In this document: positions 2,205-34,923 of the stretch, one piece after another | Position numbering within the stretch: the stretch's first letter is position 1 | How the letters are laid out: the number at the start of each line of letters is the position of its first letter | The notes under the pieces: generated by a model | Database searches by the model: none | Told to the model about the DNA's origin: nothing | The model's input: only the letters and a program-made list of their open reading frames with translations | Virus record (IMG/VR): IMGVR_UViG_3300037042_001630 | Span: 1 to 35,930 of that record | DNA from: a virus | Length of the DNA stretch: 35,930 nucleotides | Strand: one strand, 5' to 3' | Position numbers and translations under genes: made by a program

Positions 2205-2369
2205 CTATTGTTTTGTACTAAATGGTATTATACTAAAAAGTATAATTAAGCACCCTACAACCTGAATATCAAAGCTAGAATCATAAGGAAAGTCAATGGG
2301 TAGGTTATGGTTAAACTTTATCGAATACTCATAAACCTCTAGAGTGTCAAACAACTGATTGTCCTTCAT
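2205..2369 (-). CDS. Small hypothetical ORF, 54 aa
   Basis: The ATG at 2367-2369 lies inside the end of the SPFH gene (22-bp overlap). The frame runs 54 residues from MKDNQLFDTLEVYEYSIKF to a TAG. The C-terminus is hydrophobic (VVGCLIILFSIIPF), so a tail anchor is possible. An 8-bp perfect stem with a 4-base loop (attatact at 2227-2234, agtataat at 2239-2246) lies inside its coding part and could alternatively be a structure at the end of the late transcript. It would be the last late gene. No family is recognised. Confidence 0.4.
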   Translation of the reverse strand: MKDNQLFDTLEVYEYSIKFNHNLPIDFPYDSSFDIQVVGCLIILFSIIPFSTKQ

Positions 2370-2871
2370 TTATTAAACGGATTGTGCGGATTTTTGCGAT
2401 GTCGGTTAAAGTTACTTGAATAATCTCTACTCCGTATTTCTTTACCTCTGAGCGAACCTTTTTAGTTATTAGGTTGTCAATGTCATTATCTATACATTTA
2501 ACCCATTCACTACTCATAATAACACCCTTTATAATACCTTGAGAGATGTCAGAAATAGCATCTACATTATCAAACAATTCTAAACAAAATGTCTTAACAT
2601 CTACTATCCTATATTTAACTACCGATTTTATAACTATATTTTGTTCATCTAATGTTACCAAAGATTGAGCAGGTAAAGTTAAGGTAGTAAGCATCGTGTG
2701 TTGTTGGATGTACTCATCTACGAAAGGCAATTTAAAATGGATCCCTTTCTTTAGAACTTTATTAAACTTTCCGTTGCGTAAAAATACAGCCTCTTGATAT
2801 TCCCTTATAATAAATACAGGGTTTATGTGGTCGATTATGCTTATACAGAAGTCTATTAGTTTATCAAACAT
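2347..2871 (-). CDS. SPFH / band 7 (stomatin-like) domain protein
   Basis: A 174-residue protein with the layout of a short slipin/stomatin. The N-terminal stretch (residues 1-22) is moderately hydrophobic with NPVFIIREYQEAV. The SPFH core follows, with the GIHFKLPFVDE motif (43-53), DEQNIVIKSVVKYRI (about 95-109) and the later VKKYGVEIIQVTLTDI segment. SPFH proteins form membrane-attached oligomers and organise membrane microdomains or regulate proteases. The C-terminal coiled-coil oligomerisation region of cellular stomatins is mostly missing. The gene overlaps the phosphoesterase gene by one base (TAATG-type junction) at the end of the late operon beside the lysis genes. A role in altering the host membrane late in infection is inference. 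Confidence 0.75.
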   Translation of the reverse strand: MFDKLIDFCISIIDHINPVFIIREYQEAVFLRNGKFNKVLKKGIHFKLPFVDEYIQQHTMLTTLTLPAQSLVTLDEQNIVIKSVVKYRIVDVKTFCLELFDNVDAISDISQGIIKGVIMSSEWVKCIDNDIDNLITKKVRSEVKKYGVEIIQVTLTDIAKIRTIRLINEGQSVV

Positions 2872-12490: not shown

Positions 12491-13315
12491 CTACAAAGGG
12501 GTTGCTACCTTTCTGCCATTTGGTGTTGTTGTGGTTGCAGTATTTGTTGTTGTAGTTGTTGTTCTGCGTTGCCCGTTATCAGGGTTTAACATATACAATT
12601 TACCCTTTACAGCTTCATCCTGCAATACATCTGCAATCTCCATAAACGAACCATTAACTTTAGGATTAGGTATTCTTTTCCCTTCTTTGTCAAGGATAAT
12701 AGCTTTTCCTGTTTCATCTAAATCAAATTTATAAGTCTTTTCAATCTTAGATAAATACCCTTCTTTTTCAAACTCATTAATATCTGCTTTGAACTTAACT
12801 TTGTTTAGTTCCTGAGCCTTAAAGAAATCTAACTTAACATTCTTTTTCTCGCTCTCAGAAGATTGTTTAAATGTTTCAAACTCAGAAGTAGTAGCTTTTA
12901 AAAGACTTTGATAGTCATTTGCTTTACCTAAAACTTTGTTGTATTTTTCTTCCAACTCTTTTACTTTTTCATCATTACCCTTACCTGCCTTTTCAGTCAA
13001 GTCAGCAATAACAGTCTTTTGTTTAGCATCGTACTCAGATACAACAAATTTTAGTTTGTCTGTTACCTTCTTATCCTTTAAGTCATCAGAGTTAAAGTCA
13101 ATATCTAAATCAAATCCTTTAGCTACTTTCTTGATCTCGTTTTCTAAAGTTCCAAAAGTTTTACCTAGAATCTTTTTTACTGATTCGTTTTCTTCTGTAA
13201 TGTTAGATTGTTTGATAAAGTCCTTTTCAAAGGTTGCTTTAAATGTATCTAAATCTTTAATGTCATCCGCTTTGATACCTAAGTATTCAAAGACTTCTTT
13301 TGTTTCTAAAGCCAT
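12491..13315 (-). CDS. Scaffolding protein candidate
   Basis: A 274-residue, highly charged, Lys/Glu/Asp-rich and mainly helical protein. It has long coiled-coil stretches (about 100-165, KVKELEEKYNKVLGKAND, SEFETFKQSSESEKKN) and almost no hydrophobic core in the first half. It lies just before the capsid gene, the usual place for a scaffold. The last 25 residues are low-complexity and Thr-rich (RRTTTTTTNTATTTT). Such tails may bind capsid or be flexible. No protease gene was seen nearby, so release without cleavage is possible. Confidence 0.6.
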   Translation of the reverse strand: MALETKEVFEYLGIKADDIKDLDTFKATFEKDFIKQSNITEENESVKKILGKTFGTLENEIKKVAKGFDLDIDFNSDDLKDKKVTDKLKFVVSEYDAKQKTVIADLTEKAGKGNDEKVKELEEKYNKVLGKANDYQSLLKATTSEFETFKQSSESEKKNVKLDFFKAQELNKVKFKADINEFEKEGYLSKIEKTYKFDLDETGKAIILDKEGKRIPNPKVNGSFMEIADVLQDEAVKGKLYMLNPDNGQRRTTTTTTNTATTTTPNGRKVATPL

Positions 13316-13318
13316 AGT

Positions 13319-13591
13319 TTATTTTGTTTTTGTCCCCTTAGATTTTGCAGTAAGAGGTTCTGCAACTTTTTTACTTTCTTCAATAGGTGTTAAATCTAAT
13401 TTTGTTTCGCTTCCGTTTTCGTGAATGATTGTTGTTTTCAATTCCTCGTAAAACGTAGGAGCTTCTACTACTTCCATGTGCATTGTCTTCATTAACTGAG
13501 CATCTTTAGCTAGTTTTTCAGCAATGTATTTTGGATTGCCTTTTGCATCCCGTACCAACACATCCCCTGCTTCGTTTCTTTTATAGTTCAT
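13319..13591 (-). CDS. Hypothetical small virion-region protein, 90 aa
   Basis: A 90-residue basic protein starting MNYKRNEAGDVLVRDAKGNP, with a middle beta-like part (TTIIHENGSETKLDLT) and a Lys-rich end. It overlaps the upstream gene by 11 bases and ends three bases before the scaffold candidate. It may be a head-assembly accessory. No family is recognised. Confidence 0.55.
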   Translation of the reverse strand: MNYKRNEAGDVLVRDAKGNPKYIAEKLAKDAQLMKTMHMEVVEAPTFYEELKTTIIHENGSETKLDLTPIEESKKVAEPLTAKSKGTKTK

Positions 13592-13946
13592 TTTTATTCT
13601 TTTTTAGTTGTTCTATTGTTAATTTAACTCTATTTGAAAAAGACTCTTTCTGAAGATTGATTAATTTGTTTTTACGATTAACAGATTTACAAAGTTCCTT
13701 CCACTTCTTATTGGTTAAGTCGAAAGCTATTGACATCTCTTTGTTATCTAAGTATGGAGTAGAGAAATAAGTTCTTAGATAAGAATTTAATATCTCATTA
13801 AACTTTTCCTTTTCGTCTTCTTGCTCTTTTCTACGCTTATCTAAATGGTCATTGATAGCGTGTTTCAATTCCTCATTAACAGCAGGGTGAACAAACTTGC
13901 CGAATGAAATAAATCGACCTAAAAATCTTTTTAATTTATTGTACAT
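13581..13946 (-). CDS. Hypothetical helical protein, 121 aa
   Basis: A 121-residue, very basic, helical protein (LDKRRKEQEDEKEKFNEIL, NKKWKELCKSVNRKNKL). It starts after a leader ending AAAAACTATG that carries a TATATTTG box. Its place between the minor head protein and the scaffold suggests a head-assembly role, but no family is recognised. Confidence 0.55.
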   Translation of the reverse strand: MYNKLKRFLGRFISFGKFVHPAVNEELKHAINDHLDKRRKEQEDEKEKFNEILNSYLRTYFSTPYLDNKEMSIAFDLTNKKWKELCKSVNRKNKLINLQKESFSNRVKLTIEQLKKNKNEL

Positions 13947-13963
13947 AGTTTTTAATATTTAGG

Positions 13964-13971
13964 CAAATATA
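13964..13971 (-). promoter_or_regulatory. Possible Bacteroidota -7 box (TATATTTG)
   Basis: On the - strand TATATTTG matches the TAnnTTTG consensus 18 bases before the ATG of the 121-aa protein. No clear TTG lies 17-21 bases further upstream, so this is a weak internal promoter candidate for the head genes. Confidence 0.35.
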
Positions 13972-13978
13972 CAAATTA

Positions 13979-14884
13979 TTATTCAATATAACCTAAACTT
14001 CTTGCTCTTTCTAAATCATTTTCTGATACGATTGCTTCTGAAACAGGAATTAAAGAATGCAAACAATTGTACCCACCTAAGTAAGAATAAATAGTACTCT
14101 CATTTGTCCCATCTATTTCACCTCCCCAAGTTCCATCGCCATTATCACAAGTACCTAAGTTTTGTCCGTTTCCCCAGCTCTCGATTTCTTTATAGTGGTA
14201 GTAATTTCCTACTCTCTCTCTACAAAAACATCTAGTATTTTTTACAATAGTTCCGCTAAAGTAAAACCAATCATTCCCCAATTCCTCAGATAAGATACTT
14301 GTATAACTCCTATCTGCTATCGCAAAAGAATCATTTGTAATCTGCTTGGTGTACTTTAATATTTGACTTGCCTGTTCTTCGTCACCTTTAATAAACAATT
14401 CAATAGATGAAATAGTGTCACCTATGTTAGCGCCATTCACAACAGCATTCTCTAACATTGATTGAATAGGCTTTACCGAAATGTTTACATACGGCTCACC
14501 TGCTAAAGCATCAACAGCATTACGTTTAGCAATCTCTAAATAACTTTCTGATGCTAATGGGTTTGGTGTTTCTCCGAATCCTTTACTAATTAACCTATCA
14601 TTTACTCCTGCTTGTACATCAAATTCTTTAGCGAACTCTTTAACAGCATCTAAATATTCACGATTAAGAAATATTGATTTTAACTCGTCCGAGATTTCGG
14701 CAATAGCCTTTAAGTTCTTTGAGTTAATTTTGATTTGACCATTAACCTTATCTAACTTATCTAACTGAGCAATAACATCGTTTAGAATACGTTTCTGTTG
14801 CTTCTGAGCAATAGTTTGTAGTTCTAATGGTATTTCTTCTAGCCTATCGCTTTTCTGCTTTATAAGGGCTTCAAATGAAGGCAT
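13979..14884 (-). CDS. Minor head protein (Mu gpF / SPP1 gp7-like)
   Basis: A 301-residue protein. The first two-thirds are helical (IPLELQTIAQKQQKRILND and a long KEFAKEFDV region). The C-terminal part contains the signature of phage head morphogenesis proteins: NTRCFCRERVGNYYHYKEI (about 215-235), then a Gly/Trp-rich loop, GTNESTIYSYLGGYNC and HSLIPVS. The Cys and His residues may bind a metal ion, as in this family. It lies directly after the portal gene, the usual position, with a four-base gap. It likely enters the procapsid through the portal vertex. Confidence 0.7.
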   Translation of the reverse strand: MPSFEALIKQKSDRLEEIPLELQTIAQKQQKRILNDVIAQLDKLDKVNGQIKINSKNLKAIAEISDELKSIFLNREYLDAVKEFAKEFDVQAGVNDRLISKGFGETPNPLASESYLEIAKRNAVDALAGEPYVNISVKPIQSMLENAVVNGANIGDTISSIELFIKGDEEQASQILKYTKQITNDSFAIADRSYTSILSEELGNDWFYFSGTIVKNTRCFCRERVGNYYHYKEIESWGNGQNLGTCDNGDGTWGGEIDGTNESTIYSYLGGYNCLHSLIPVSEAIVSENDLERARSLGYIE

Positions 14885-14888
14885 TTAG

Positions 14889-16715
14889 TTAGGCTTTTGG
14901 TGGTGTGTATATTTGTGGTTGAACAGATGCGTTTATTTCGTCAGCTTTTTTCTTTGCTAGATCATGCAATGTAGCTATCTGTAATTCTAAATCTTTATCC
15001 ATAAAGTTCTCATCGGTATTTAACGAATCGTTTATAAAATTCAATACAGACGAATGTAAAATGTCTTCCCATTTAGATACGGTACCTCTCGCTAACTTCA
15101 TATTAATCTCATCCTGAGAAAGTCCCAATAATCTATCAGCACTCATTACCAATTTAAAAATACCTGTCGACTTTTGGTTATCGCCATAATAAGCATTGAT
15201 GTATTGCAATAATAACAATTGGATGAATGCAGGAGGTAAGTTATTTTTAATCGCATTCCCAATATCAATTAAATAATCTTCTGAAGATTTAAAGTCAAAC
15301 GTCTTAGGATAACTCATAGCAACACCTTGAAAAGAATCGCCATATCTTTGCTCACCAATAGCATTTAAACAAAATTCGTATATCTCAAATATTTGGTCTG
15401 AGATAGGTTTAACAAAAGCATACATAGCTTTGTTATCTAAACTCATTCCAGTAGCTGTTAAATTCTCAGTACCTTTTACTTCGCTATTAGATGTCTGTAA
15501 ATGCAGAATCTTTCTAGCCTTATCCGTATCACTTGCTACTTTCTTATCTATAAAGTCTAAGGTATGAATCTCAGGAGAAACATATTTTAACGGGTCTTGT
15601 GTACTCTTTTCTTCACCTACTGCAAACTTAGTAGTAGGGTTTAATAATAATGTGCCTAATGGACTAATACGAGATTTTAAGCCTATGCCATTACAAGAAG
15701 GGCAAGTCTTTTCAATTCCATTAGCTATAATTCTACCTTCAGAACAAATAAATCCTTCTGAATCTTTAAACTCACAAGGCGAACCATACATTACTTTAAC
15801 AGGAAATACGCACGAATTAACTAAGGCTTGTAAAAAGTTAGCATTCGTAGCAACCAAATCTAGTAAGTCGGTAGCATAAGAGAAAGGTGATTGCCATAAA
15901 ATATCGTCACCCTTTAAAGTTGGTATTCCTTTTAATTGATGTACTTGACACTCGCCTATGTTATGCTCAAAGAATAATTCTATTCTAAATAAATTATCTT
16001 GTTTACGTCCGTATTGAACTATAAAATAGATTGCATTGCGTGTATATAGCTCATAAATGTTCCCTTCTTTTACTTGCTTACCTCCAAACTCTACAACCGA
16101 CTTATCACAACTAAGGAATAAATAATACTCGTTTTGTTCGTACTCGATTACGTCTTTTGATGGGTAATAATAAATAGTAGGCTTATATAATTCGTTTGAA
16201 ATTATAGGCTCATTAGCTTCGTTTAATTCATACTCAATTTCTTCAGGACGTACACCAATAAAACCATTAGCATCAATGGTTTTAATAGCTGGTAAGATTC
16301 CTTTTATAAAGGTTTCTAAAGAGCCATAAATAGGGATGTCATTTTCTACATAAGACTGAAAAGTTAAATCAGCACTTTTATAAGTAGCGTCATCTTCTCT
16401 ATAATCAATTCCCCAATTACCATCGGCAAAAGGTCTTTGAATCGTATTCATATAATCTAAGAATACAGGTAGAGTGTGTTGCTTGTAGTTGTTCTTTATG
16501 TAATCAGCCTCCTTTTGAGTTTGATTAGGAGATCGAAATTCAAATAGTTTATCAGGGTAAATGCCTTTTACAGCGTGGTATGAATTAGCCTCTGCAAGGT
16601 CTACCGTGTCCGTATAAAGGTCGTGTAGTCCTATTTGCTTCTTTTGTGATACGTTTTTAGTAGCCTCTACCGATAACAATAGGGCTTTATCAAGAATCTC
16701 CTGTTCTGTTGCCAT
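14889..16715 (-). CDS. Portal protein
   Basis: A 608-residue protein of usual portal length, followed by a minor head protein, scaffold and capsid. It has long helices near the end (DIGNAIKNNLPPAFIQLLLL, SQDEINMKLARGTVSKWEDIL) and a central region (ATDLLDLVATNANFLQALV, about 281-299) compatible with the portal core. An insertion at 314-350 contains four cysteines (C314, C324, then CPSC at 338-341, followed by NGIG). This looks like half of a DnaJ-type zinc ribbon and is unusual in a portal. The ATG overlaps the stop of the 40-aa gene (TAATG). The call rests on size, context and general pattern. Confidence 0.72.
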   Translation of the reverse strand: MATEQEILDKALLLSVEATKNVSQKKQIGLHDLYTDTVDLAEANSYHAVKGIYPDKLFEFRSPNQTQKEADYIKNNYKQHTLPVFLDYMNTIQRPFADGNWGIDYREDDATYKSADLTFQSYVENDIPIYGSLETFIKGILPAIKTIDANGFIGVRPEEIEYELNEANEPIISNELYKPTIYYYPSKDVIEYEQNEYYLFLSCDKSVVEFGGKQVKEGNIYELYTRNAIYFIVQYGRKQDNLFRIELFFEHNIGECQVHQLKGIPTLKGDDILWQSPFSYATDLLDLVATNANFLQALVNSCVFPVKVMYGSPCEFKDSEGFICSEGRIIANGIEKTCPSCNGIGLKSRISPLGTLLLNPTTKFAVGEEKSTQDPLKYVSPEIHTLDFIDKKVASDTDKARKILHLQTSNSEVKGTENLTATGMSLDNKAMYAFVKPISDQIFEIYEFCLNAIGEQRYGDSFQGVAMSYPKTFDFKSSEDYLIDIGNAIKNNLPPAFIQLLLLQYINAYYGDNQKSTGIFKLVMSADRLLGLSQDEINMKLARGTVSKWEDILHSSVLNFINDSLNTDENFMDKDLELQIATLHDLAKKKADEINASVQPQIYTPPKA

Positions 16716-16863: not shown

Positions 16864-16885
16864 TTATTTGCATTTTATTAAATAC
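16864..16885. repeat. 22-bp exact repeat, copy A
   Basis: Identical to 32367-32388 in the same orientation. It starts ttatttgcatttt and ends attaaatac. It overlaps the last codons and stop of the C-methyltransferase gene and lies 27 bases before the 40-aa gene. It may be a shared regulatory element read from the - strand, or a recombination scar bracketing the 15.5-kb tail and glycosylation block. Confidence 0.7.
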
Positions 16886-18107
16886 AAATTAACTCAGGTA
16901 TAGGTATTAAATATTTGCCCTTGTAAATTGGATTTAACTTAGCCATTAATTCATCTTTAAAGTTCCAAGCTAATATAATACAAAACTCAGCATCACAGCC
17001 TTTTACCTCGTCTATTCCGACAATCTTTATTCCCGTTCCTGCTGCATACTTGCCTATCTTCTCAGGTGTTTCATCTGCTATAAATCTAATCAACTTGCTA
17101 TCAATCTGTGATGAATTTAACAACGTATTACCTTTTGCTGAAGCTCCAAACCCTATACAATTACCATTAATTGCTTGTAGGTTTAAATTTAGATTCTCAA
17201 TCATATCGTAAACCTTATCCGACCACCCTAAATAAATATCAGCCTTATTATAACCGCCTTTTATTTCTAAGTTTACAAAAGTAGATACATTACGACTTAC
17301 TTTGTGGTCGCTTTCTTCATGTGCAATAGTTACTCTTATTGTACCTCCGTGAATAGATTTCTTTTCAGCATCAATAATCTTCATATCTGAATTAGAACAC
17401 AATCTCATAATAGGCAATAAACTAAAATAAGAAAGATGCTCAAAGTAAATAGTATCAAACTCATTATTTTCAATAAAATCTACTAAGTAAGGAAACTCTA
17501 AAACTAGCACCCCGTTTTTATTTAATAAGTTCTTTGATGCTGATAAAAAATCAACTACATTATCAACGTGAGCAAATACATTAGTCGCTGTGATTAAATC
17601 AGCCTTACCAAACGTGCTTAAAATAATATCTGAATTTGGGTAATTAAAGAAGTCAGCATAGGAATCAACACCAATTTCTCTAGCTATTACGCAAAGGTTT
17701 TTTGCTGGATCTACATTTAAAACTCTTAATCCTATCTCATCTTTGAACTCTTTTAACAAAGCCCCGTCATTACCTGCTACGTCAATATGGAATGAATCTT
17801 TATTTAAGTTGAATTTAACGGCTAAGTCTTTAGCCATTTGTCGAGAGTGCTTTACATAACCACCATTGATTGAACTACGATAAGTATAATACTCGTATAG
17901 TTCCGATGGGTCAACAACAATAGATAATTGGGATAGCCCACATTCATCACAAAACATTAACTCTAAAGGATAGCGCTTTGCGTCTTTCGCCTCTTTCTCA
18001 GAATCAAAAAGACTATTAGCCATAGGCATTAATCCTAAGTCTAAGTATTTTACTAATTTATCGGAGTTACATACTCGACAATTGGTGTGCTGTTTTGGTG
18101 CTGCCAT
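16878..18107 (-). CDS. Sugar C-methyltransferase-like SAM enzyme
   Basis: A 409-residue protein with the three-part build of deoxysugar C-methyltransferases (NovU, EvaC and TylC3 type). An N-terminal zinc-binding domain has C10-x2-C13 and C53-x2-C56 (RVCNS, FCDECG). A SAM-binding core has HIDVAGNDGALL at 107-118. The C-terminal family domain has the GFGASAKGNTLLNSS motif (about 322-336) and FIADETPEKIGKY. Known members methylate C-3 of dTDP-4-keto-6-deoxysugars. It is the last gene of the glycosylation island. A short overlapping frame begins upstream at 18134 after a strong leader (ACTAAAACTATGG). The start at 18107 places the first Cys pair normally. The substrate is unknown. Confidence 0.85.
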   Translation of the reverse strand: MAAPKQHTNCRVCNSDKLVKYLDLGLMPMANSLFDSEKEAKDAKRYPLELMFCDECGLSQLSIVVDPSELYEYYTYRSSINGGYVKHSRQMAKDLAVKFNLNKDSFHIDVAGNDGALLKEFKDEIGLRVLNVDPAKNLCVIAREIGVDSYADFFNYPNSDIILSTFGKADLITATNVFAHVDNVVDFLSASKNLLNKNGVLVLEFPYLVDFIENNEFDTIYFEHLSYFSLLPIMRLCSNSDMKIIDAEKKSIHGGTIRVTIAHEESDHKVSRNVSTFVNLEIKGGYNKADIYLGWSDKVYDMIENLNLNLQAINGNCIGFGASAKGNTLLNSSQIDSKLIRFIADETPEKIGKYAAGTGIKIVGIDEVKGCDAEFCIILAWNFKDELMAKLNPIYKGKYLIPIPELICI

Positions 18108-18151
18108 AGCTTGGTGGTTTATTTAGTTTAGCCATAGTTTTAGTTGTTTAG

Positions 18152-18700
18152 TTAAAATCTTATTATTACTAATGCGTTATCGAATCTTCCGTTCGCTCTC
18201 ATGTCGATTATCTCTACGTTCTTGTGCATTCTCATATACCTGTGTCGCTCAATATCTAAAGCAAGTAAATCTTCAATGACGTATATCCCACCTTTATTCA
18301 TCTTGCCTTTTAATAGGTCAAACGTGTCGAGCTGGTCTTGTGTCATGTGGCTACCATCGTCTATGATAATATCAAATGTTTTAAACTCAATAGTCTTTAA
18401 GAAGTTTGCTTTTGTTGCATCTGCTTCGATAATTGCCACATCGTTTTTGTATTTCTTAGGTGTGAATACTACCGATATATCTACTCCAACAATCTCAGAG
18501 TTATCAAAGTACTCATCGAACAAGTCAATAGAGTCGCCCATTGCTAATCCTATTTCCATGAATGAACAGCCTTTTTGGAATGGTGCAAATAGTTTATCGT
18601 AGGTGTCTACGTAGGTGTGAATGCCGTCCTTGTCGTTGCATCCTATATCTACTCCTGAATGATTACCAATACGTGCAAAAATTTCTTTTAGTGTTTTCAT
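18152..18700 (-). CDS. Sugar O-methyltransferase-like (MycE/TylE type)
   Basis: A class I SAM methyltransferase of 182 residues from the start chosen at 18698-18700 (MKTLKEIF), which overlaps the upstream stop as ATGA. The frame is open 12 codons further up (18736), but that part is only overlap. Features are SFMEIGLAMGDSIDLF (SAM loop), EIVGVDIS, IIEADATKANF and TFDIIIDDGSHMTQDQL. The DDGSH motif is typical of metal-dependent macrolide-sugar O-methyltransferases such as MycE and TylE. Its place beside a sugar C-methyltransferase and glycosyltransferases supports glycan methylation. Substrate and linkage are not known. Confidence 0.75.
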   Translation of the reverse strand: MKTLKEIFARIGNHSGVDIGCNDKDGIHTYVDTYDKLFAPFQKGCSFMEIGLAMGDSIDLFDEYFDNSEIVGVDISVVFTPKKYKNDVAIIEADATKANFLKTIEFKTFDIIIDDGSHMTQDQLDTFDLLKGKMNKGGIYVIEDLLALDIERHRYMRMHKNVEIIDMRANGRFDNALVIIRF

Positions 18701-19515
18701 AATATTTCTTTTAAAGGTTTTATTTGTTCGTTCCATTTATAACCTTCGTCATATTCACAAAGGTAGGTGTAATTATTAGCGTATAAATCAACTTCGCTCA
18801 TTCTAACATTAGGCAAATGTAAGAATTTTTCATTCATTAACCTAAATATTTTTTGATTAAAGGCTTTCGATATGTGGTTAAACGTCCAAAAGTATCTTAC
18901 TTGTTTGTACTCGTTCTTAAATATCTCAGCAAACTCAGGAAAATCAGTCTTAGAACAAATATCGTAAAACCTTTGTAAGTTCTTTTCCCTTACTATATCT
19001 ATTTTTTGTAACGTGTAATCGCTTAACTTTCCGTTTACGTTATAATCCTGCGTTGCTAGTTTTCGTAGCTCTAAATCAAAAGAAATTATCTCTCTAGTAA
19101 GTACAAATATATCATTATAATTAGGCAAAGTAATATCCTGTTTAGGACTTAACCCAAATTGATAGATATTCTTTTCGGCTGACTTATCGCAGTTAAACAT
19201 CTCAGCATTGCCATAGTATTCATGGATAAATATTGAACAGCTTTTTAATACGTCTAATAGATATTGGTTGCTTTCTTGTTTGATTAGTTCGGCTGTATAG
19301 TCAGTTCTGTTTTCTTGCATATCCCAATTCCAATTAAAAGGGTCTAGAAAGTGAATCGTAAATCTGTTTCCGTTTTGATTATTCCAATCGTTAAGATAAG
19401 TTAAGTATGGAACAGCACGACACGAACCTATAATTAAAATAACCTCAGAGCCACTACCAGTAGAGTAAGTCCCTTTTTCGAATTGCTGTTGTTTTATTTG
19501 AATAGTGTTTATCAT
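18697..19515 (-). CDS. Unassigned protein of the island, possibly WcbI-like
   Basis: A 272-residue soluble protein. VILIIGSCRAVPYLTYLND near the N-terminus (about 25-43) looks like the first conserved loop of WcbI-type polysaccharide biosynthesis proteins, which have a G-x-C/S-x pattern at the start of an acyltransferase or sulfotransferase-like fold. Aromatic motifs follow (HFLDPFNWNWDMQE, IFIHEYYGNAEMFNC). The rest has no recognised motif. Its overlaps (ATGA on both sides) tie it firmly to the glycosylation operon. A role in sugar acylation or tailoring is a guess. Confidence 0.45.
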   Translation of the reverse strand: MINTIQIKQQQFEKGTYSTGSGSEVILIIGSCRAVPYLTYLNDWNNQNGNRFTIHFLDPFNWNWDMQENRTDYTAELIKQESNQYLLDVLKSCSIFIHEYYGNAEMFNCDKSAEKNIYQFGLSPKQDITLPNYNDIFVLTREIISFDLELRKLATQDYNVNGKLSDYTLQKIDIVREKNLQRFYDICSKTDFPEFAEIFKNEYKQVRYFWTFNHISKAFNQKIFRLMNEKFLHLPNVRMSEVDLYANNYTYLCEYDEGYKWNEQIKPLKEIL

Positions 19516-19706
19516 TCCATTTCGTATATGTGACGTTTAACTTCGTGCCAATAATCTAGGTCTTTTATTCCGTATTTGTGTAGCGTTCTAACTATTTCGC
19601 CTATCTGCATTGTTATCCTTTGCTTTGCTTCTAAAGTGTCATCAGCCCAATAAAAAGCGTGAATCTTCCAAAGGTTGTCGGCTTGTTGTTTAGGCGTTAA
19701 GTCCAT
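19512..19706 (-). CDS. Small hypothetical protein of the island, 64 aa
   Basis: A 64-residue helical protein (LTPKQQADNLWKIHAFYWAD, LEAKQRITMQIGEIVRTLHKY). It overlaps the genes on both sides (by 17 and 4 bases), so it belongs to the same operon. The function is unknown. It could be a small partner of a transferase. Confidence 0.5.
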   Translation of the reverse strand: MDLTPKQQADNLWKIHAFYWADDTLEAKQRITMQIGEIVRTLHKYGIKDLDYWHEVKRHIYEME

Positions 19707-20397
19707 GTAGCTTTATCATAATATACTCGTCTAATTCTCTACGCTGGTCTTGTTTAACTCTATAAAAGTAATGAGGGCTATTTGATACATCTTTAAAGTC
19801 TTCAAAGTTAAAACTTTTTCCGAAACCATAAGACAAAAGACTCCAACCAGTTTCTGTTTTATTTATAGAGCATGAATTGCCATCTTTAAATGGTATACCT
19901 AAATTTTTAACCACTAAAGACATTGACTCATCTTCCATATATTTATGATTCCACTCTGTTTTATTATCTACTATTTGCTTTACTACGTCCCTTGAAATAA
20001 TGTAATGACCTCCACCCCATACAAAGTCGAACGTATCTCTTTTTACTGTTAACCCTTCAAATATATTTTGGTCTGGTAATGTTTGAACGTACTGTATTAG
20101 CTTCTTTTTATTAACGTAGCAAGATGAGTGAACTCTAGCGATGTAATCAAACTCATAATTATTTAAAGCGTATTCTAAGCCTTGTATTGTTTTTTCTCCC
20201 ATATTTTCAAGTGATTCGCTTACAGGTAAGCAAACACAATCTTTGCTATTTCTAGGGAATGCAGATATGCCGAAATAATAAAGCGTTTCGCATCCTTCAA
20301 TATTGTGAGAATCCCACGTTGCTTTGCTCGTATCGACCATCTTTCCGTAAGGCCTTGTTTCACAACTGAGAACTAATATTAGGACTTTTTTACTCAT
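19690..20397 (-). CDS. GT31-like glycosyltransferase, DxD altered
   Basis: A 235-residue protein resembling beta-1,3-glycosyltransferases of the GT31/Fringe group: VLILVLSCETRPYG at 5-18, TWDSHN (27-32), a strand ending FDYIARVHSSCYVN (83-96), WGGGHYIISRDVV (127-139) and the catalytic-type MEDESMSLVV (154-163). In GT31 enzymes the strand normally ends in DDDxxVN, which binds the metal. Here the acidic triplet is replaced by His-Ser-Ser, so activity may be metal-independent or lost. It has no signal or membrane segment and would act in the cytoplasm. Confidence 0.65.
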   Translation of the reverse strand: MSKKVLILVLSCETRPYGKMVDTSKATWDSHNIEGCETLYYFGISAFPRNSKDCVCLPVSESLENMGEKTIQGLEYALNNYEFDYIARVHSSCYVNKKKLIQYVQTLPDQNIFEGLTVKRDTFDFVWGGGHYIISRDVVKQIVDNKTEWNHKYMEDESMSLVVKNLGIPFKDGNSCSINKTETGWSLLSYGFGKSFNFEDFKDVSNSPHYFYRVKQDQRRELDEYIMIKLHGLNA

Positions 20398-20400
20398 TGC

Positions 20401-20607
20401 TTAATCTATTGGAATAATATTAATTTTGTGAGGCGACATTATTGCTTGATGATAAGGGGTAAACACAAGCCTCTTTATACCATCTTTATCTTTTTTATAT
20501 ATGCCTATAAACTCCCCATTACTAGCTTTTACTTCATATTTTTTACCTAGCGTTAATGCCTCTAAGTCTTTAAACGATGTCCATTCTATCCAATTTTGTC
20601 TATTCAT
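20401..20607 (-). CDS. Small hypothetical protein of the island, 68 aa
   Basis: The start is placed at 20605-20607 (MNRQNWIEWTSFKDLEAL) rather than 27 codons upstream, because the upstream part only mirrors the end of the methyltransferase gene and the A-rich leader (TTTAAAACTATG) fits this ATG. The 68-residue product has a small beta-barrel look (LTLGKKYEVKASNGEFIGIY) with a conserved-style GLKYEV-like turn seen in small phage proteins. No function is recognised. Confidence 0.5.
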   Translation of the reverse strand: MNRQNWIEWTSFKDLEALTLGKKYEVKASNGEFIGIYKKDKDGIKRLVFTPYHQAIMSPHKINIIPID

Positions 20608-20611
20608 AGTT

Positions 20612-21151
20612 TTAAATTTTAGGATAAATAAAAATGATTCCTCTGTTAGCTCCGTTTGCCTCAGTATTATAATGGTATTCGTAACCACTAGGATAAATAG
20701 CTGGTAGCAATGATTCTATTTCTGAAAACTCCAAAGCATAGTTATACTCATCATATCCAAAGTCTTTATTCGGCACTTTAAAATCGTGAATACAAATAAC
20801 AGGATTAATATTTAGTTCTGCAATTAGTTTTAATTCGTCTTTTAATGGGCAAGGTGTATCGTGCCAATGCGAGTCGATGTAAATTAAGGTGCTTTTTGTG
20901 TGGTTTGCGTTCGCTAAGAAGTCAATTGAATACATCTCTAATACTGGTAAGTTCTTAGCTCTTGCAATGTCATAAAACTCTTTATTAGGCTCACAACCAA
21001 ATACTGTTTTAAAGTTTTTAGTAAACCATTCTAAAGATGCACCATATTGAGAGCCTGTTTCTAAAACAACCTCAATACCAAACCTCTTTTTTAGTTTAAG
21101 TATTTCAACAGGAATAAAAGTATCGTTTTCAAACGGGTGCTGACCATTCAT
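20612..21151 (-). CDS. SAM-dependent methyltransferase
   Basis: A 179-residue class I methyltransferase. The SAM loop is VVLETGSQYGASLEWF (28-43), the acidic residue after strand 2 is in FGCEPN (51-56), and strand 4 reads TLIYIDSHWHDTPCP (88-102). It resembles small methyltransferases found in polysaccharide loci (Methyltransf_24/FkbM style). The second motif, DSHWH, may bind a metal. The neighbouring glycosyltransferases suggest a sugar or glycan substrate, but a protein substrate is not excluded. Confidence 0.7.
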   Translation of the reverse strand: MNGQHPFENDTFIPVEILKLKKRFGIEVVLETGSQYGASLEWFTKNFKTVFGCEPNKEFYDIARAKNLPVLEMYSIDFLANANHTKSTLIYIDSHWHDTPCPLKDELKLIAELNINPVICIHDFKVPNKDFGYDEYNYALEFSEIESLLPAIYPSGYEYHYNTEANGANRGIIFIYPKI

Positions 21152-21153
21152 AG

Positions 21154-21837
21154 TTATAAGTCTTTAAATTCGTTAATCATTTTTTCAAACTCAGTATAAG
21201 AATGATACTGAATAGCTTTAGGTCTTGTGTATTCCCAAGTATCTGTATTCACAAAATTATACTTTTCTCTTTCGTATTTCCAAGCATAAGCCCCGATTGC
21301 ATTGTACTCCGAAAACCTTTGCGAAGTCATTATAATATACTCCAAATTAGGCTCGTATTTCTCAATATTAACCAATGTACTCCGATGGTATATTAAAGCG
21401 TTTCTACGCATCCATTCAAACTCTTGAGGCTCTTTAATAAACGTTTCCGTTGGTTCTTTCCAGCATATCGCATCGCCAACTTTATCATAAGAGGTGTATA
21501 GTATTTCGGGTTTCCCATCTGCAATAAAATCCTGTAAATTAATTGGGTGGTCAAAAATTAAATCTGAATCAGAGAATAAGATAAATTCAGCATCCGTATA
21601 TTTGTGGGCTTGAATCTTACAAAGCTGTTGGTATAAATAACCTGTTCCGTATTCTTTTACATATTGAATAGTCGCTCTTTCGGGCAACACAATACTTTCA
21701 AAATATCTTTTATCATTTATAGGAACTAAGATAACTATGTTTCTATATCCTGTTACGAATTTAGATAGCGAACGCAAAGAGTATTCGAGCCACTTTTTAT
21801 CTTGGTGATAGGTCTTATAAAATATGTCTATACTCAT
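21154..21837 (-). CDS. GT-A-type glycosyltransferase (DUF6492-like)
   Basis: A 227-residue protein with a GT-A fold pattern. It starts MSIDIFYKTYHQDKKWLEYS, continues with NIVILVPINDKRYF, and carries a DSD metal-binding motif in FILFSDSDLIFDHPI (86-99). It has acceptor-side aromatic residues (WEYTRPKAIQYHSY). The layout fits the DUF6492 group of predicted glycosyltransferases. It overlaps the upstream gene by four bases (ATGA). It lacks membrane segments and would act on a cytoplasmic acceptor. Confidence 0.7.
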   Translation of the reverse strand: MSIDIFYKTYHQDKKWLEYSLRSLSKFVTGYRNIVILVPINDKRYFESIVLPERATIQYVKEYGTGYLYQQLCKIQAHKYTDAEFILFSDSDLIFDHPINLQDFIADGKPEILYTSYDKVGDAICWKEPTETFIKEPQEFEWMRRNALIYHRSTLVNIEKYEPNLEYIIMTSQRFSEYNAIGAYAWKYEREKYNFVNTDTWEYTRPKAIQYHSYTEFEKMINEFKDL

Positions 21838-22547
21838 ATCTGCTTTCTTTTTGAATTAGTGTAAATGTAATTATAAACGTATGTACTCATTTTACCTACA
21901 TCTGTTGTACTATTGAAACTATAAAGTCCTGTTTCCCATATTAAATAACGTCCCGTTTTTAACCATTGATCGTGATTATATTGAGCATTATGGTTTAAGT
22001 GATAAGCGATATTCTGCTTTACAAATGTTAAATCTATTCCCTTTTGATTTGCTGAATAAGGTATCCAGTAATCAAAGTGGCATTGCCCTAAACAAAAGAT
22101 AGTCTGAGCAAACACACTTAACCACTTCTTATGAATAAAGAATAAGTCAATCCCTGCTAAGTATTGCGCCCCTACATAATCGCCATTATGATTAACTCTA
22201 TTCCCCATTACTATTGATGTTTCCATTTCAACACTTATCCTTTCAATAGTTGCAACATCACATCTTAACTCTATGTCTGAATTGATAATACAAAAATGGT
22301 CTTCGTTTTGTTCTTTAGCCCAATCCATAATAGCATTTACAGACGGGTAAGGTCTGCCAAATGTATGTTCCATAGTCCTTTGTGTAGGGATAAAAGTAAC
22401 ATCAGGATAAAGAGGGGCTAGTAGTTCACACTCATCTTTTCCGTTTATTGAGTAAACCTTAAAGCCAATAGCAATCCAAGACTTTACAGCTTTTAGTTGT
22501 ATGCCTTCGTTAATGTGTTTGGGTGCTATGGAAGTAACGGCTATCAT
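21834..22547 (-). CDS. Glycosyltransferase-like protein
   Basis: A 237-residue protein starting MIAVTSIAPKHINEGIQLKA. FKVYSINGKDE and HFCIINSDIELR (85-96) give a strand ending in N-S-D-I-E, the likely DxD equivalent of a GT-A enzyme. GRPYPSVNAIMDW (64-76) and HFDYWIPYSANQKG resemble acceptor or donor loops. It starts in a TAATG overlap with the preceding 42-aa gene and overlaps the next by four bases. The glycosyltransferase call is by fold pattern only. Confidence 0.6.
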   Translation of the reverse strand: MIAVTSIAPKHINEGIQLKAVKSWIAIGFKVYSINGKDECELLAPLYPDVTFIPTQRTMEHTFGRPYPSVNAIMDWAKEQNEDHFCIINSDIELRCDVATIERISVEMETSIVMGNRVNHNGDYVGAQYLAGIDLFFIHKKWLSVFAQTIFCLGQCHFDYWIPYSANQKGIDLTFVKQNIAYHLNHNAQYNHDQWLKTGRYLIWETGLYSFNSTTDVGKMSTYVYNYIYTNSKRKQI

Positions 22548-22675
22548 TAGTTAAGGCAAATATAAGTATAATGTAGTATATCCTTACTATAAAAAACCAT
22601 TAAACTAAAGTTTTCTTTTCCTTTAATTGTTGCGGTGTCCCCATTTATGCAGTTTAAATCTACTGTATAAATCAT
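22547..22675 (-). CDS. Small ORF linking two glycosyltransferases, 42 aa
   Basis: A 42-residue frame (MIYTVDLNCINGDTATIKGK, then ENFSLMVFYSKDILHYTYICLN). Its ATG overlaps the stop of the upstream gene (ATGA) and its stop overlaps the ATG of the downstream gene (TAATG). Both couplings make it likely to be translated. A TATATTTG box on the - strand at 22556-22563 lies in its end, so part of the stretch may also be promoter-like. No family is recognised. Confidence 0.45.
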   Translation of the reverse strand: MIYTVDLNCINGDTATIKGKENFSLMVFYSKDILHYTYICLN

Positions 22676-23493
22676 TTATTATTAACGTGCTTATTAGTTA
22701 ATATATCCCTTGCCTTAAACAAATGCTCAAAGCCTCTTGCCTTATTCATTACGTGGCAAATCCTATCGTAGAAATCTACGTAAACACTTCTTACCGTATG
22801 CCTGCCACCATATAAAGTAAACATAAAGAAGTCATTTTGTAACTCGCTTAATGTCCTAGCATCTATTAGATTACCGAAAAACATAGGCTCAAAATCAACT
22901 CTAGGATTCACCCCTAACTTAATTAATGAAGCATTAAAGAACAATTCATCAGGCAAACTTAACCCCCATTTAGGTTCTATCTTTTCAGAGTTAAACCCTT
23001 TACTATAATAATCATTAGCCTGTTCAAATACTTCGTTATTCTCAAAGTAAAACCAACTAGAATTAATCATTAAGCCTTGTTCAACTCCAAAAAACTCTTT
23101 GAATGTTTCCGCATCAGTCCATTGTACATAATTATCTAGCACATTGCCTTTAAATCCATTGCCTAATAGCTTATTGAATAGCGGTTGAATATCTTGTAAC
23201 ACTAAACTATCAGCATCGATATAGAGCGTTTTATCATAGCTAGAATACTTGTAAATATTTAACTTAGCTAATGCAGGTTGAAACATTCCATCGTTAATAT
23301 AGTGATGTCGGGCTATTGTTTTAATAGAATCAAATACTAAATAATGCTCAGGTCTGTAATGCTTTTGGTGTTCATTATCGGTTACTAAGGTTATACTAGT
23401 AGAAGGGTTATAATGCTTAATACTTAAAGCAAGGTTATAAGCTCCCATTGGATAGGACTTGTTTTTTAAAGAAAGGATTATTACACCTTGCAT
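22672..23493 (-). CDS. GT8-like glycosyltransferase
   Basis: A 273-residue protein with a clear nucleotide-diphospho-sugar transferase pattern: GVIILSLKNKSYPMGAYNLA at the start, SITLVTDNEHQKHY, ALAKLNIYKYSSYDKTLYID, and the DAD metal motif (93-95) in LYIDADSLVL. LPDELFFNASL and a C-terminal GGRH motif follow. The order fits GT8-type or related retaining transferases. It is the first large gene of the island behind the promoter at 23665. The donor sugar cannot be predicted. Confidence 0.75.
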   Translation of the reverse strand: MQGVIILSLKNKSYPMGAYNLALSIKHYNPSTSITLVTDNEHQKHYRPEHYLVFDSIKTIARHHYINDGMFQPALAKLNIYKYSSYDKTLYIDADSLVLQDIQPLFNKLLGNGFKGNVLDNYVQWTDAETFKEFFGVEQGLMINSSWFYFENNEVFEQANDYYSKGFNSEKIEPKWGLSLPDELFFNASLIKLGVNPRVDFEPMFFGNLIDARTLSELQNDFFMFTLYGGRHTVRSVYVDFYDRICHVMNKARGFEHLFKARDILTNKHVNNK

Positions 23494-23642
23494 TAAATTT
23501 TAGTGTCTTTTATAATCCCGTTACCATTCCATTGTTTACCATTCTCATAGAATACTTTGTACTTTCTTACAAAACGCTCTTTAAAGGATTCTAGCCCTAA
23601 CATAAAGCATTCTGCTCTTTGTTTACTCGATGTTTTACTCAT
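23493..23642 (-). CDS. First small gene of glycosylation island, 49 aa
   Basis: A 49-residue basic protein (MSKTSSKQRAECFMLGLESF, then KERFVRKYKVFYENGKQW). It starts after a textbook leader (ACTAAAACTATG) 22 bases from the promoter's -7 box, and its stop overlaps the ATG of the GT8-like gene (TAATG). It is the first product of the transcript. No family is recognised. Confidence 0.6.
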   Translation of the reverse strand: MSKTSSKQRAECFMLGLESFKERFVRKYKVFYENGKQWNGNGIIKDTKI

Positions 23643-23664
23643 AGTTTTAGTTTTTTAGTGTATG

Positions 23665-23695
23665 CAAATATAATAATTTATTTAATACAAACAAA
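23665..23695 (-). promoter_or_regulatory. Bacteroidota promoter of the glycosylation island
   Basis: On the - strand TTTG (23692-23695) is followed after 19 bases by TATATTTG (23665-23672), matching the TTTG-N19-TAnnTTTG consensus. It directly follows the terminator of the tail genes and precedes the first island gene, so the island has its own start of transcription. Confidence 0.75.
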
Positions 23696-23725
23696 AAAAC
23701 CTTACACATTTCTGCATAAGGTTTT
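23693..23725 (-). terminator. Rho-independent terminator after tail-tube gene
   Basis: A perfect 9-bp stem, aaaacctta (23696-23704) with taaggtttt (23717-23725), and a 12-base loop. On the - strand the stem runs into a T7 tract. It ends the tail transcript just before the island promoter, whose -33 box overlaps the T tract. Confidence 0.8.
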
Positions 23726-23749
23726 CCCCTTTAAAACACACGCCAAAAA

Positions 23750-24310
23750 CTAAGTGAAAATTCCTACTGGTGCTGTATAAAGTGAAGGCATATCTTTCTG
23801 TCTCCAAGTAAACTTGTTGTTGAAAAACATATTCACGTTATTGTCATTCTGAATCGGCAACCCTCCTGTAAAGGAAATAGCTGAATCAACCCACAAAACT
23901 TTAGCACCTGCTAAACTTTCTTCTGTTCCTTTTAAATACAAAATTGCACCTCCCATTACTTTACCTCCTAAAAGTTGGTTGTAAGTGTTGATGTTGTTTT
24001 GATTTACGTTTGAATCAATAGCTGTTCCTGAACGGTCATAAGTCACCAACTTGGGTGTTCCTCCTACTATGTTTGAATCAACAGTTACTGCACTCGGTTC
24101 GTCTAAACCGATTTTGAGATTGTCAAACTTGGTAGCTCTACCTGCTGCAATCTCAGCATTTATTTGTGATGCTGAACTTGGGTCTGTTAATTGGTGGTTA
24201 CACTCTAAAAGAATAGTCCCACTAATACCAGCCAATAGCTCCTCACCGCAATCATTAAGAAGATGCGTACCTAAAGTATCTGCACAATCATAATTAACAC
24301 AATTTGCCAT
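23750..24310 (-). CDS. Major tail (tube) protein candidate
   Basis: A 186-residue soluble, beta-rich protein (AVTVDSNIVGGTPKLVTYDR, KVLWVDSAISFTGGLPIQ). It ends the tail gene run and has a strong terminator after it and a long leader before it, as expected for an abundant structural protein. The size fits a tube subunit. Four Cys fall in the first 37 residues (C4, C9, C21, C37), suggesting a metal site or disulfides in an N-terminal arm. The neighbouring 178-aa protein is the other tube candidate. Confidence 0.5.
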   Translation of the reverse strand: MANCVNYDCADTLGTHLLNDCGEELLAGISGTILLECNHQLTDPSSASQINAEIAAGRATKFDNLKIGLDEPSAVTVDSNIVGGTPKLVTYDRSGTAIDSNVNQNNINTYNQLLGGKVMGGAILYLKGTEESLAGAKVLWVDSAISFTGGLPIQNDNNVNMFFNNKFTWRQKDMPSLYTAPVGIFT

Positions 24311-32366: not shown

Positions 32367-32388
32367 TTATTTGCATTTTATTAAATAC
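32367..32388. repeat. 22-bp exact repeat, copy B
   Basis: Identical to 16864-16885 in the same orientation. It lies at the stop of the large terminase gene, as copy A lies at the stop of the C-methyltransferase gene, and in both cases the next - strand gene starts 27 bases further on. Confidence 0.7.
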
Positions 32389-33731
32389 TATTTCCGTTGG
32401 TGTTGCTCAATCCATTTGTAGTAAATATTATGGATTAGATAACGTATCGTGTCAATATAATCGGCTCTTTGGTTTACGTCCTTTCGGTCTTTCTTTAATA
32501 TACCTCCAAAAGCATCTACCTGAACATTACGCATATCTCTTATTGAGTTTACGCATCGTTTGTTTATCTTAAAGTCAGGGAAATGATAAAGAACATAGTT
32601 TACATCAGCTCTGCTATTTTCGTGTGTTGGGTTATTGCTTACTTTAATCTGTGATTCTCGCATTCCTAGACCTCTAATTAACTGAAGGTATAAAGAAGCA
32701 TTGTCACGCTGAGATATGTCGCCACGATTACCCATTGCATCACCTGTTAGTATAGCATTAGGCAAAGAGTTATTATATTTTGTTTTAATCGCATCTACCA
32801 TAGCAGGAATACTACCCTGTTTAATTTCCATTTCATCAAATTGATGTCCGTGTATTCCTTTATCGTCTTGCCAATAGTGATGGAATGTTACACAGAACGG
32901 AGTTAAGTTAAAGTCAATACTAATAATTAGTTGTTTTTTAGTGTCGTACTCTACTGACTCAGACACATGCTTACTATCTAGCCATTGAGTAGCAAATGGG
33001 CTTTGTACCTCTCTCGATGCGTTCCAATCCCCGTATAATAACCTTTGCTTGTCATAGTCTGAGGTTAATCGTTCTAGCTGCTGAACATAAAGAGCCTTAA
33101 ACTTCTCATCAGGATTCTCACTAACTAAAGATTGCACGAACTTTTGATGTGGTTGTAACTCTACCCTTAGATCATCCTTTATGATAAACCTTTCTTTTAT
33201 AAATCCATCGGCAGGATTGCCAGTACAAAACAATTTAGGTACTAATCCGTAATCATCTAGCTTCCATCTTATACGAGTACTTACTATCTCAAAAGCCTTT
33301 AATGTTATTTCGGTAGCCTCGTCTATAAAAGCATCAGTATATTCTGTTGAGCCTAAAGAAGCAAAGTCAGGGTCGCTAGGATATAAGAATAAATCCTTTA
33401 GTACTGTTTGGCTACCATTAGCCCAATTGATTGTATGTTTTTGTGAGTTGTAGGTGTAGTGAGTCCCTGACTTATAGCCCATCATTGTTGCTACCTTAAA
33501 CAAGGTTACTAATGTAGACTGTTCAAGTATGGCAATCTTAGCTCTACCTATTAACCCTCTACTACCTGCGTATGTAGTCCTGCGATAGATGTGCCAAATG
33601 CAACCTAAGTAAGATTTACCACCTCCTGCACCACCACCATAAAGAATTTCATTAGTTGTTTTGTCCTCTAGAAAGTCCCAAGCTATTGTTTGTTTATGAG
33701 ACAACCCTATTTCTACCTGCCCTTTTTCCAA
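32388..33731 (-). CDS. terL: Terminase large subunit
   Basis: A 447-residue protein with the full ATPase-nuclease layout. Walker A is GGGAGGGKS (32-40), Walker B is DAFIDEA (133-139) with the catalytic Glu, and the coupling motif CTGNP is at 169-173. The C-terminal RNase H-like nuclease has acidic residues in SIDFN (271-275), TGDAMGNRGD (329-338) and SRADVNYVL (383-391). It cuts concatemeric DNA and pumps it into the procapsid through the portal. The small subunit is encoded just upstream. The portal gene is 15.7 kb away instead of adjacent, which is unusual. Confidence 0.95.
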   Translation of the reverse strand: MEKGQVEIGLSHKQTIAWDFLEDKTTNEILYGGGAGGGKSYLGCIWHIYRRTTYAGSRGLIGRAKIAILEQSTLVTLFKVATMMGYKSGTHYTYNSQKHTINWANGSQTVLKDLFLYPSDPDFASLGSTEYTDAFIDEATEITLKAFEIVSTRIRWKLDDYGLVPKLFCTGNPADGFIKERFIIKDDLRVELQPHQKFVQSLVSENPDEKFKALYVQQLERLTSDYDKQRLLYGDWNASREVQSPFATQWLDSKHVSESVEYDTKKQLIISIDFNLTPFCVTFHHYWQDDKGIHGHQFDEMEIKQGSIPAMVDAIKTKYNNSLPNAILTGDAMGNRGDISQRDNASLYLQLIRGLGMRESQIKVSNNPTHENSRADVNYVLYHFPDFKINKRCVNSIRDMRNVQVDAFGGILKKDRKDVNQRADYIDTIRYLIHNIYYKWIEQHQRK

Positions 33732-34891: not shown

Positions 34892-34923
34892 CAAATGTAC
34901 AAATAATTTTAATATGATGCAAA
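34892..34923 (-). promoter_or_regulatory. Late promoter, leftward
   Basis: On the - strand TTTG (34920-34923) is followed after 20 bases by TACATTTG (34892-34899), an excellent Bacteroidota promoter. It lies just before the first late gene and would drive terminase and the tail genes. Confidence 0.8.

Follow-up and report, generated by a model that had tools for sequence, protein, structure and literature searches.

What would a phage do with a set of sugar-transferring and methylating enzymes encoded in the middle of its structural operon? This question is raised by the IMG/VR virus record IMGVR_UViG_3300037042_001630, a 35.9-kb stretch of DNA (referred to below as the window, i.e. the whole stretch that was analysed) in which the late structural genes are on the minus strand in the order terminase (32388-33731), tape measure, distal tail, tail tube, glycan block, portal, head and fibre genes. 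The glycan block comprises 12 minus-strand open reading frames (ORFs; 16878-23642) and is bounded by the tail-tube gene and the portal gene. We report that its family 8 glycosyltransferase gene (GT8) belongs to the core gene set of a family of uncultured phages. Our preferred reading, which we consider probable, is that the block is a virion-glycosylation module of siphophages probably infecting Bacteroidota, with the tail tube protein as the best candidate target.

GT8 between the tail tube and portal genes

The slot between tube and portal is defined by the following features:

23750..24310, minus strand: putative tail tube protein (186 amino acids, aa), assigned from its predicted fold, directly upstream of the block
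23693..23728, minus strand: terminator-like hairpin 3' of the tube gene, a 16-pair stem followed by a T run
23665..23695, minus strand: Bacteroidota-type promoter, TTTG-N19-TATATTTG (pattern TTTG-N19-TAnnTTTG)
22672..23493, minus strand: GT8 glycosyltransferase, core gene of the slot (Pfam Glyco_transf_8, E 1.1e-6)
14889..16715, minus strand: portal protein, downstream border of the slot (PHROG 7376 portal, E 9e-18)

A GT8-like glycosyltransferase had been predicted in the first-pass annotation of this DNA and is borne out by the Pfam match (28.9 bits vs. a gathering cut-off of 24.3) and by a DxD motif, of which D93 and D95 are invariant in an alignment of 11 GT8s; a strict DxD regular expression fails on 14 of 80 GT8s, and the motif is claimed just for the 11 that were aligned. 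With a GT8 family profile the best match is glycogenin-1 (E 5e-6), an enzyme that begins its glycan on a protein tyrosine. The phage enzymes thus share family, DxD motif and best profile match with glycogenin/Gat1, but they are only approximately 270 aa long and are known here from sequence alone.

Portal-seeded searches are the least biased, since the block was not selected for. Of 29 contigs obtained in this way, 19 extend as far as the tube, and all 19 have GT8 in the interval from there to the portal; the same applies to 67 of 67 such loci among 80 further ones from a distant branch. Seeding with GT8 itself gave 228 viral contigs that encode a GT8 relative; in the best 80 of these a tube homologue is located upstream in 78 (within 9-234 bp in 77) and a portal is present in 73. 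One of the two tube-less contigs begins 168 bp before GT8; in the other, L167, neither a tube nor a portal was recognised. Of the loci read, 139 carry tube, GT8 and portal, representing 104 distinct GT8 sequences (some contigs recur between searches), and in L030, L168 and L165 the tube stop and GT8 start codons overlap as TAATG. For 27 representatives, GT8 distances correlate with those of the portal (r 0.82) and the tube (r 0.78), with 0 of 999 permutations as high, while tube and portal distances correlate at 0.94. Since GT8 distances track those of both structural genes, GT8 has mostly descended vertically, together with them.

The terminator and promoter predicted at the start of the block were both located, and both recur at the equivalent place in the closest relative, IMGVR_UViG_3300008267_000084 (L002), the hairpin nearly unchanged and the promoter (1726-1756) with a diverged spacer. 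As bare patterns they occur at chance frequency (4 terminator-like sites vs. 3.6 expected; 2 promoter patterns vs. 1.7), and we give them weight because of their conserved position in this relative, not because of pattern frequency.

Variable cargo between GT8 and the portal

The cargo on the portal side of GT8 ranges from one methyltransferase gene (L168, L174 and L181) to about 7.4 kb in the window and its nearest relative. A trio of GT8 and two GT-A-type enzymes, here denoted GTb and GTa, is common to a whole sub-lineage, and GTb-GTa-FkbM methyltransferase is the cargo in 13 of the 19 complete portal-found slots. Other sets bring in genes resembling GT2 or GT25, a gene for a hexapeptide transferase and one for a short DegT-like protein. 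The long cargo of the window has seven genes in place of FkbM, and these distal seven were found only here and in one relative. A recognised methyltransferase is present in 128 of the 139 complete slots. GT8 is thus the constant part of the slot, methylation its usual finish and only the portal-side part exchangeable.

These data modify three points of the first-pass annotation. The suggested comparison of related phages with and without the island found GT8 in every complete portal-found slot, so that only the distal cargo varies. The view of the block as a very large 'moron' fits its own promoter and terminator and the sporadic distal genes, but not a GT8 that is always present and vertically inherited. 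C- and O-methylation of a deoxysugar had been called unusual for a phage: the C-methyltransferase is indeed rare (in this slot, besides the window, only in the closest relative), but methylation as such is normal for the slot.

Individual loci show further arrangements. In the slot of L221 (5514-8929) a GT25-like protein is accompanied by a hexapeptide transferase and by a short DegT/DnrJ/EryC1-like protein, and from these contents some family members may build part of their own sugar. In L010 (6136-8364) GT8 is fused into a 742-aa protein with more glycosyltransferase-like regions, i.e. a one-gene version of the module. An extra SPFH-like gene on the opposite strand separates glycan block and portal in the relative (L048; 37444-38259 of its record, minus strand); the window has an SPFH/Band 7 protein gene at 2347-2871 (minus strand), close to the end of the late operon.

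The tail tube protein

The tube protein matched no known family, and its structure was predicted with AlphaFold2 from 12 relatives (predicted local distance difference test, pLDDT, 77; predicted template modelling score, pTM, 0.74). Most Foldseek matches of the model in the PDB are of the tail-tube/Hcp type (Diffocin, Sf11, Hcp, lambda, 80alpha, monocin tube and SPP1), the best with E 7.6e-4 and template modelling (TM) scores of 0.44/0.57, and on this basis we name the 23750-24310 product a tail tube protein with moderate confidence. Profile searches of the PDB with GTb, GTa and the tube gave no useful matches. Among 21 diverse tubes seven columns are invariant, and Tyr7 is the sole invariant hydroxyl residue. 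It is positioned in a low-confidence N-terminal arm rich in conserved cysteines, and as a glycan site it is a testable hint rather than evidence of a site.

Glycosyltransferases and methyltransferases of the block

Apart from GT8, the enzymes of the block are:

21834..22547, minus strand: GTb, predicted GT-A-fold glycosyltransferase with NSD at the DxD position (AlphaFold2 and Foldseek)
21154..21837, minus strand: GTa, GT-A-type glycosyltransferase (DUF6492) with a DSD motif (Pfam DUF6492, E 8.6e-6)
20612..21151, minus strand: probable small S-adenosylmethionine (SAM) methyltransferase with a VLETGSQYGAS motif (relative 81% identical)
19690..20397, minus strand: Galactosyl_T/GT31-like protein with VHSSC in place of the DDD motif (Pfam Galactosyl_T, E 8.4e-8)
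18152..18736, minus strand: MycE/TylE-type sugar O-methyltransferase catalytic domain (PDB 8ia9, TylE, E 1e-8; 3ssm, MycE, E 6e-8)
16878..18107, minus strand: sugar 3-C-methyltransferase of the TylC3/TcaB9/NovU type (Pfam Methyltransf_13/23/14)

Most of the enzyme names given in the first-pass annotation held, several of them in part. The two further GT-A-like glycosyltransferases are recovered, GTb by its fold and GTa by Pfam and motif (GTb, like the tube, was assigned by structure prediction and Foldseek). The GTb model (pLDDT 79, pTM 0.82) matches WrtF fucosyltransferase (E 4e-6), LH3 and mimivirus R699; N89-S90-D91 of GTb and D90 and D92 of GTa are invariant in the respective alignments. 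The GT31-like protein scores above the Pfam cut-off (32.7 vs. 23 bits) but the DxD metal motif is missing, with VHSSC in the window and VNSSC in L002 as read by eye. It is also the fastest-evolving glycosyltransferase of the block (58% identity and a nonsynonymous to synonymous substitution ratio, dN/dS, of 0.26 vs. the relative), and given the lost motif and the fast evolution we regard its activity as uncertain. For the small SAM methyltransferase, the SAM-binding motif could be read from the sequence but the best Pfam score is below threshold (Methyltransf_11, E 0.15).

The NovU/EvaC-like C-methyltransferase is borne out as an enzyme of the TylC3/TcaB9 type. Its architecture is Methyltransf_13, SAM domain and Methyltransf_14; it matches TylC3 (4rv9; E 4e-70) and TcaB9 (E 7e-50) over the full length, and C10, C13, C53 and C56 of the zinc-binding domain as well as Y221, E223 and H224 of the Tyr-Phe-Glu-His motif are invariant. 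We take the roles of these residues as zinc ligands and in catalysis to be those in TcaB9. The difference from TylC3, TcaB9 and NovU is that the enzyme here is phage-borne and adjoins a portal gene. Its three nearest bacterial homologues, from Bacteroidota metagenome-assembled genomes (MAGs), carry an N-terminal RmlD-like reductase fusion that the phage protein is without, and one of the three is part of an O-antigen-type locus with a Wzm/Wzt-like ATP-binding cassette (ABC) transporter and WbsX glycosyltransferases. In addition, C-methyltransferase relatives were seen in other settings: immediately before the gene for the large terminase in phages of an unrelated group (L015-L018; 8001-9185 in L015), as a 643-aa form in L013 and L014, similar in length to the reductase-fused bacterial proteins, and in a Nitrospirae MAG (L109) where a GTb homologue (13328-14518, 33% identity) is on the same contig.

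The O-methyltransferase aligns with MycE and TylE through the IDDGSH and IED(L/M) motifs (IEDL here), whose residues we assume to be metal ligands as in MycE. At 182-194 aa it is short, the alignment reaching only chain positions 172-301 or 200-325 of the PDB matches; the prediction of a MycE/TylE-like enzyme therefore stands for the catalytic domain, while the long N-terminal region of these demethylmacrocin enzymes is missing. Compared to the relative it is 96% identical with a dN/dS of 0.03, and because the relative's copy begins there its real start is probably at 18700. Of the 80 bacterial loci kept, 15 have a MycE-type homologue close to that of the C-methyltransferase, which suggests that the two enzymes share one sugar substrate.

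Other features of the block

The remaining ORFs of the block, and a second promoter, are:

23493..23642, minus strand: 49-aa ORF lying between the promoter and GT8, of uncertain coding status and with no match in the relative
22547..22675, minus strand: small protein, 42 aa, with a 52% identical homologue at the same position in L002
20401..20688, minus strand: small ORF, 95 aa, from the ORF list, with an uncertain GTG start
19512..19706, minus strand: small conserved protein, 64 aa (L002 copy 94% identical)
18697..19515, minus strand: 272-aa protein with a GSCRA motif near the N terminus and no family or structure match
34892..34923, minus strand: another Bacteroidota-type promoter, heading the late operon, with a counterpart upstream of terL in the relative (L047, 18983-19014)

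Neighbouring ORFs mostly share a few bases or lie 2-44 bases apart, and the ORF list agrees with twelve compact genes ahead of the portal when the 42-aa and 49-aa ORFs are both counted. At the position of 20401..20688 the relative carries an unrelated hydrophobic 59-aa ORF. For the 272-aa protein the only viral relative found was in L071 (82%); a WcbI-like identity had been proposed but has no support in any library searched (Pfam, NCBIfam, PHROGs or PDB sequences).

Selection, origin and host

Compared to the nearest relative, the genes of the block have dN/dS values of 0.03-0.26, much like those of the structural neighbours (one gene is saturated at synonymous sites), and the base composition is like that of neighbouring genes. 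The purifying selection indicates that the block ORFs are real genes, and the likeness to the neighbours in both respects shows a block that is maintained, neither decaying nor freshly acquired. Cultured phages in a GenBank-derived collection gave no DNA match and no carrier of this portal or GT8, the only exceptions being weak partial portal matches in Polaribacter phages and a weak GT8-like match in one metagenomic phage; a search of 84,980 genomes for prophages with the portal found nothing. The relatives of the terminase (terL), the promoter type and the kin of the C-methyltransferase point to Bacteroidota as the probable hosts.

Discussion

Phage-encoded glycosyltransferases linked to virion genes, as in virion-glycosylation systems, are what the window and its relatives contain. 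In the reading that we favour the block would be transcribed late as part of the structural operon, using a promoter of its own that follows the tube gene. In the cytoplasm of the host GT8 would add the first sugar to a virion protein, for which the tube encoded directly upstream is the best candidate; the two GT-A enzymes, perhaps also the GT31-like protein, would lengthen the chain, and the methyltransferases would C- and O-methylate an outer sugar derived from host nucleotide sugars. We infer the protein target, the order of transfer, the identity of the sugar and the benefit from gene content and gene order. The donor sugars would have to be made by the host, since nucleotide-sugar synthesis genes were seen neither in the window nor in the 46.9-kb relative, and in this respect the island is not 'self-contained' as described in the first-pass annotation. 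A constant GT8 with swappable cargo would give related phages different methyl-capped glycans, which are likely to change recognition, shielding or stability of the particle.

Phage virion glycosylation is on record for a few mycobacteriophages. According to the papers that cite the work, Che8, Corndog and Myrna use their own glycosyltransferases to modify capsid and tail-tube subunits (Freeman 2023, Cell Host Microbe; cited in PMC12363180 and PMC12619734). The present system is similar in its phage-encoded glycosyltransferases and in that the mycobacteriophage targets include the tail tube, the best candidate here; it differs in host phylum, in being known from genes alone, in the family-wide core GT8 beside the tube with exchangeable downstream cargo, and in its sugar C-methyltransferase. 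In tblastn searches with GT8 and GTb against phage records no mycobacteriophage was listed, although no pairwise comparison with Che8 gp110 or Corndog gp38 was made.

The tube is the best candidate because it is the constant neighbour of GT8 and because of this tail-tube precedent. Several points nevertheless weigh against our reading. Adjacency and vertical descent are no proof of a substrate, so that capsid, fibres or other proteins could be the target; glycan attachment to a virion protein is itself deduced; the tube model is only of moderate confidence; the Cys-rich stretch around Tyr7 may be structural; and in L160 three glycosyltransferase-like genes separate tube and GT8. The narrower proposal of an obligate, family-wide tail-tube system, in which a glycogenin-like GT8 primes the tube, perhaps at Tyr7, while a swappable 'glycotype' cassette beside it lengthens the glycan and caps it with methyl groups, is put forward as tentative.

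That another virion protein (major capsid, scaffold-associated or fibre) is glycosylated, the tube adjacency reflecting no more than a fixed operon order, is less probable still. In its favour, gene order in structural operons is generally conserved, tube and portal distances correlate so strongly and mycobacteriophages modify the capsid besides the tube. The scaffold-like protein encoded at 12491-13315 has a Thr-rich C-terminal tail that is also seen in the closest relative, but it is not kept in L003 or L006; moreover, the spacing between tube and GT8 is near fixed, sometimes with overlapping stop and start codons, while the interval from GT8 to the portal varies freely in cargo and length. 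The tail in the window (minus strand) reads RRTTTTTTNTATTTTP.

Targets outside the virion fit less well. The enzymes could alter the surface of the infected host (lipopolysaccharide, capsule or a surface glycoprotein), resulting in serotype conversion or superinfection exclusion, and the close bacterial C-methyltransferase relative in an O-antigen-type locus and the nearby MycE-type homologues in 15 bacterial loci are in keeping with this. Gtr serotype-conversion cassettes likewise encode phage glycosyltransferases but, unlike them, the island has no membrane flippase or membrane glycosyltransferase; nor does it have any other membrane protein or a ligase, and no island protein has a transmembrane segment (19-residue hydropathy maximum ≤1.22). 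Together with the late-operon position, the lack of a recognised integrase in the window and the 46.9-kb relative, and the linkage of GT8 to tube and portal in every complete portal-found slot, this makes host-surface conversion improbable. Glycosylation of phage DNA against restriction we consider very unlikely. DNA-modifying phage glycosyltransferases are known (as cited in PMC12619734), but no base pre-modification genes were recognised in the near-complete 46.9-kb relative, where some genes are without annotation and where the early region contains a cytosine methylase, ERF, YqaJ, NinG and a PAPS (3'-phosphoadenosine-5'-phosphosulfate)-reductase-like gene, and the module is placed among late structural genes. 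This early region (L047, 11983-14320, minus strand) has a PAPS-reductase/DUF3440 gene beside one for a ParB-like protein, and at 1068-1856 of the window there is a weak match to PAPS-reductase. Equally hard to sustain is a horizontally inserted moron unconnected with virion biology: the own terminator and promoter, the restriction of the distal seven genes to two phages and the occurrence of the C-methyltransferase in other phage and bacterial settings would agree with it, but no complete portal-found slot lacks GT8 and its divergence follows that of the portal, a fixed order recurs for GTb, GTa and the FkbM methyltransferase, and the base composition matches the neighbours, such that this explanation is already weakened for the GT8 core.

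With neither membrane segments nor recognised integrase, nucleotide-sugar or base-modification genes, and with a location among late genes, a virion protein is the best target, in agreement with the first-pass view of a glycan-building and methylating block within the structural operon for which a virion target is likelier than DNA. In a large family of uncultured phages GT8 is among the core genes and is linked to the tail tube (GT8 relatives in 228 viral contigs; tube, GT8 and portal together at 139 of the loci read), and the conserved GT8 behind the tube with changeable sugar-transferring and methylating genes suggests that these phages build and vary their own particle sugar coat. A constant primer with a variable, methylation-rich cargo resembles a glycotype system. 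The findings point to new protein-glycosylating enzymes and a phage-borne sugar C-methyltransferase, and the natural variants make the purpose of phage particle glycosylation testable by comparison.

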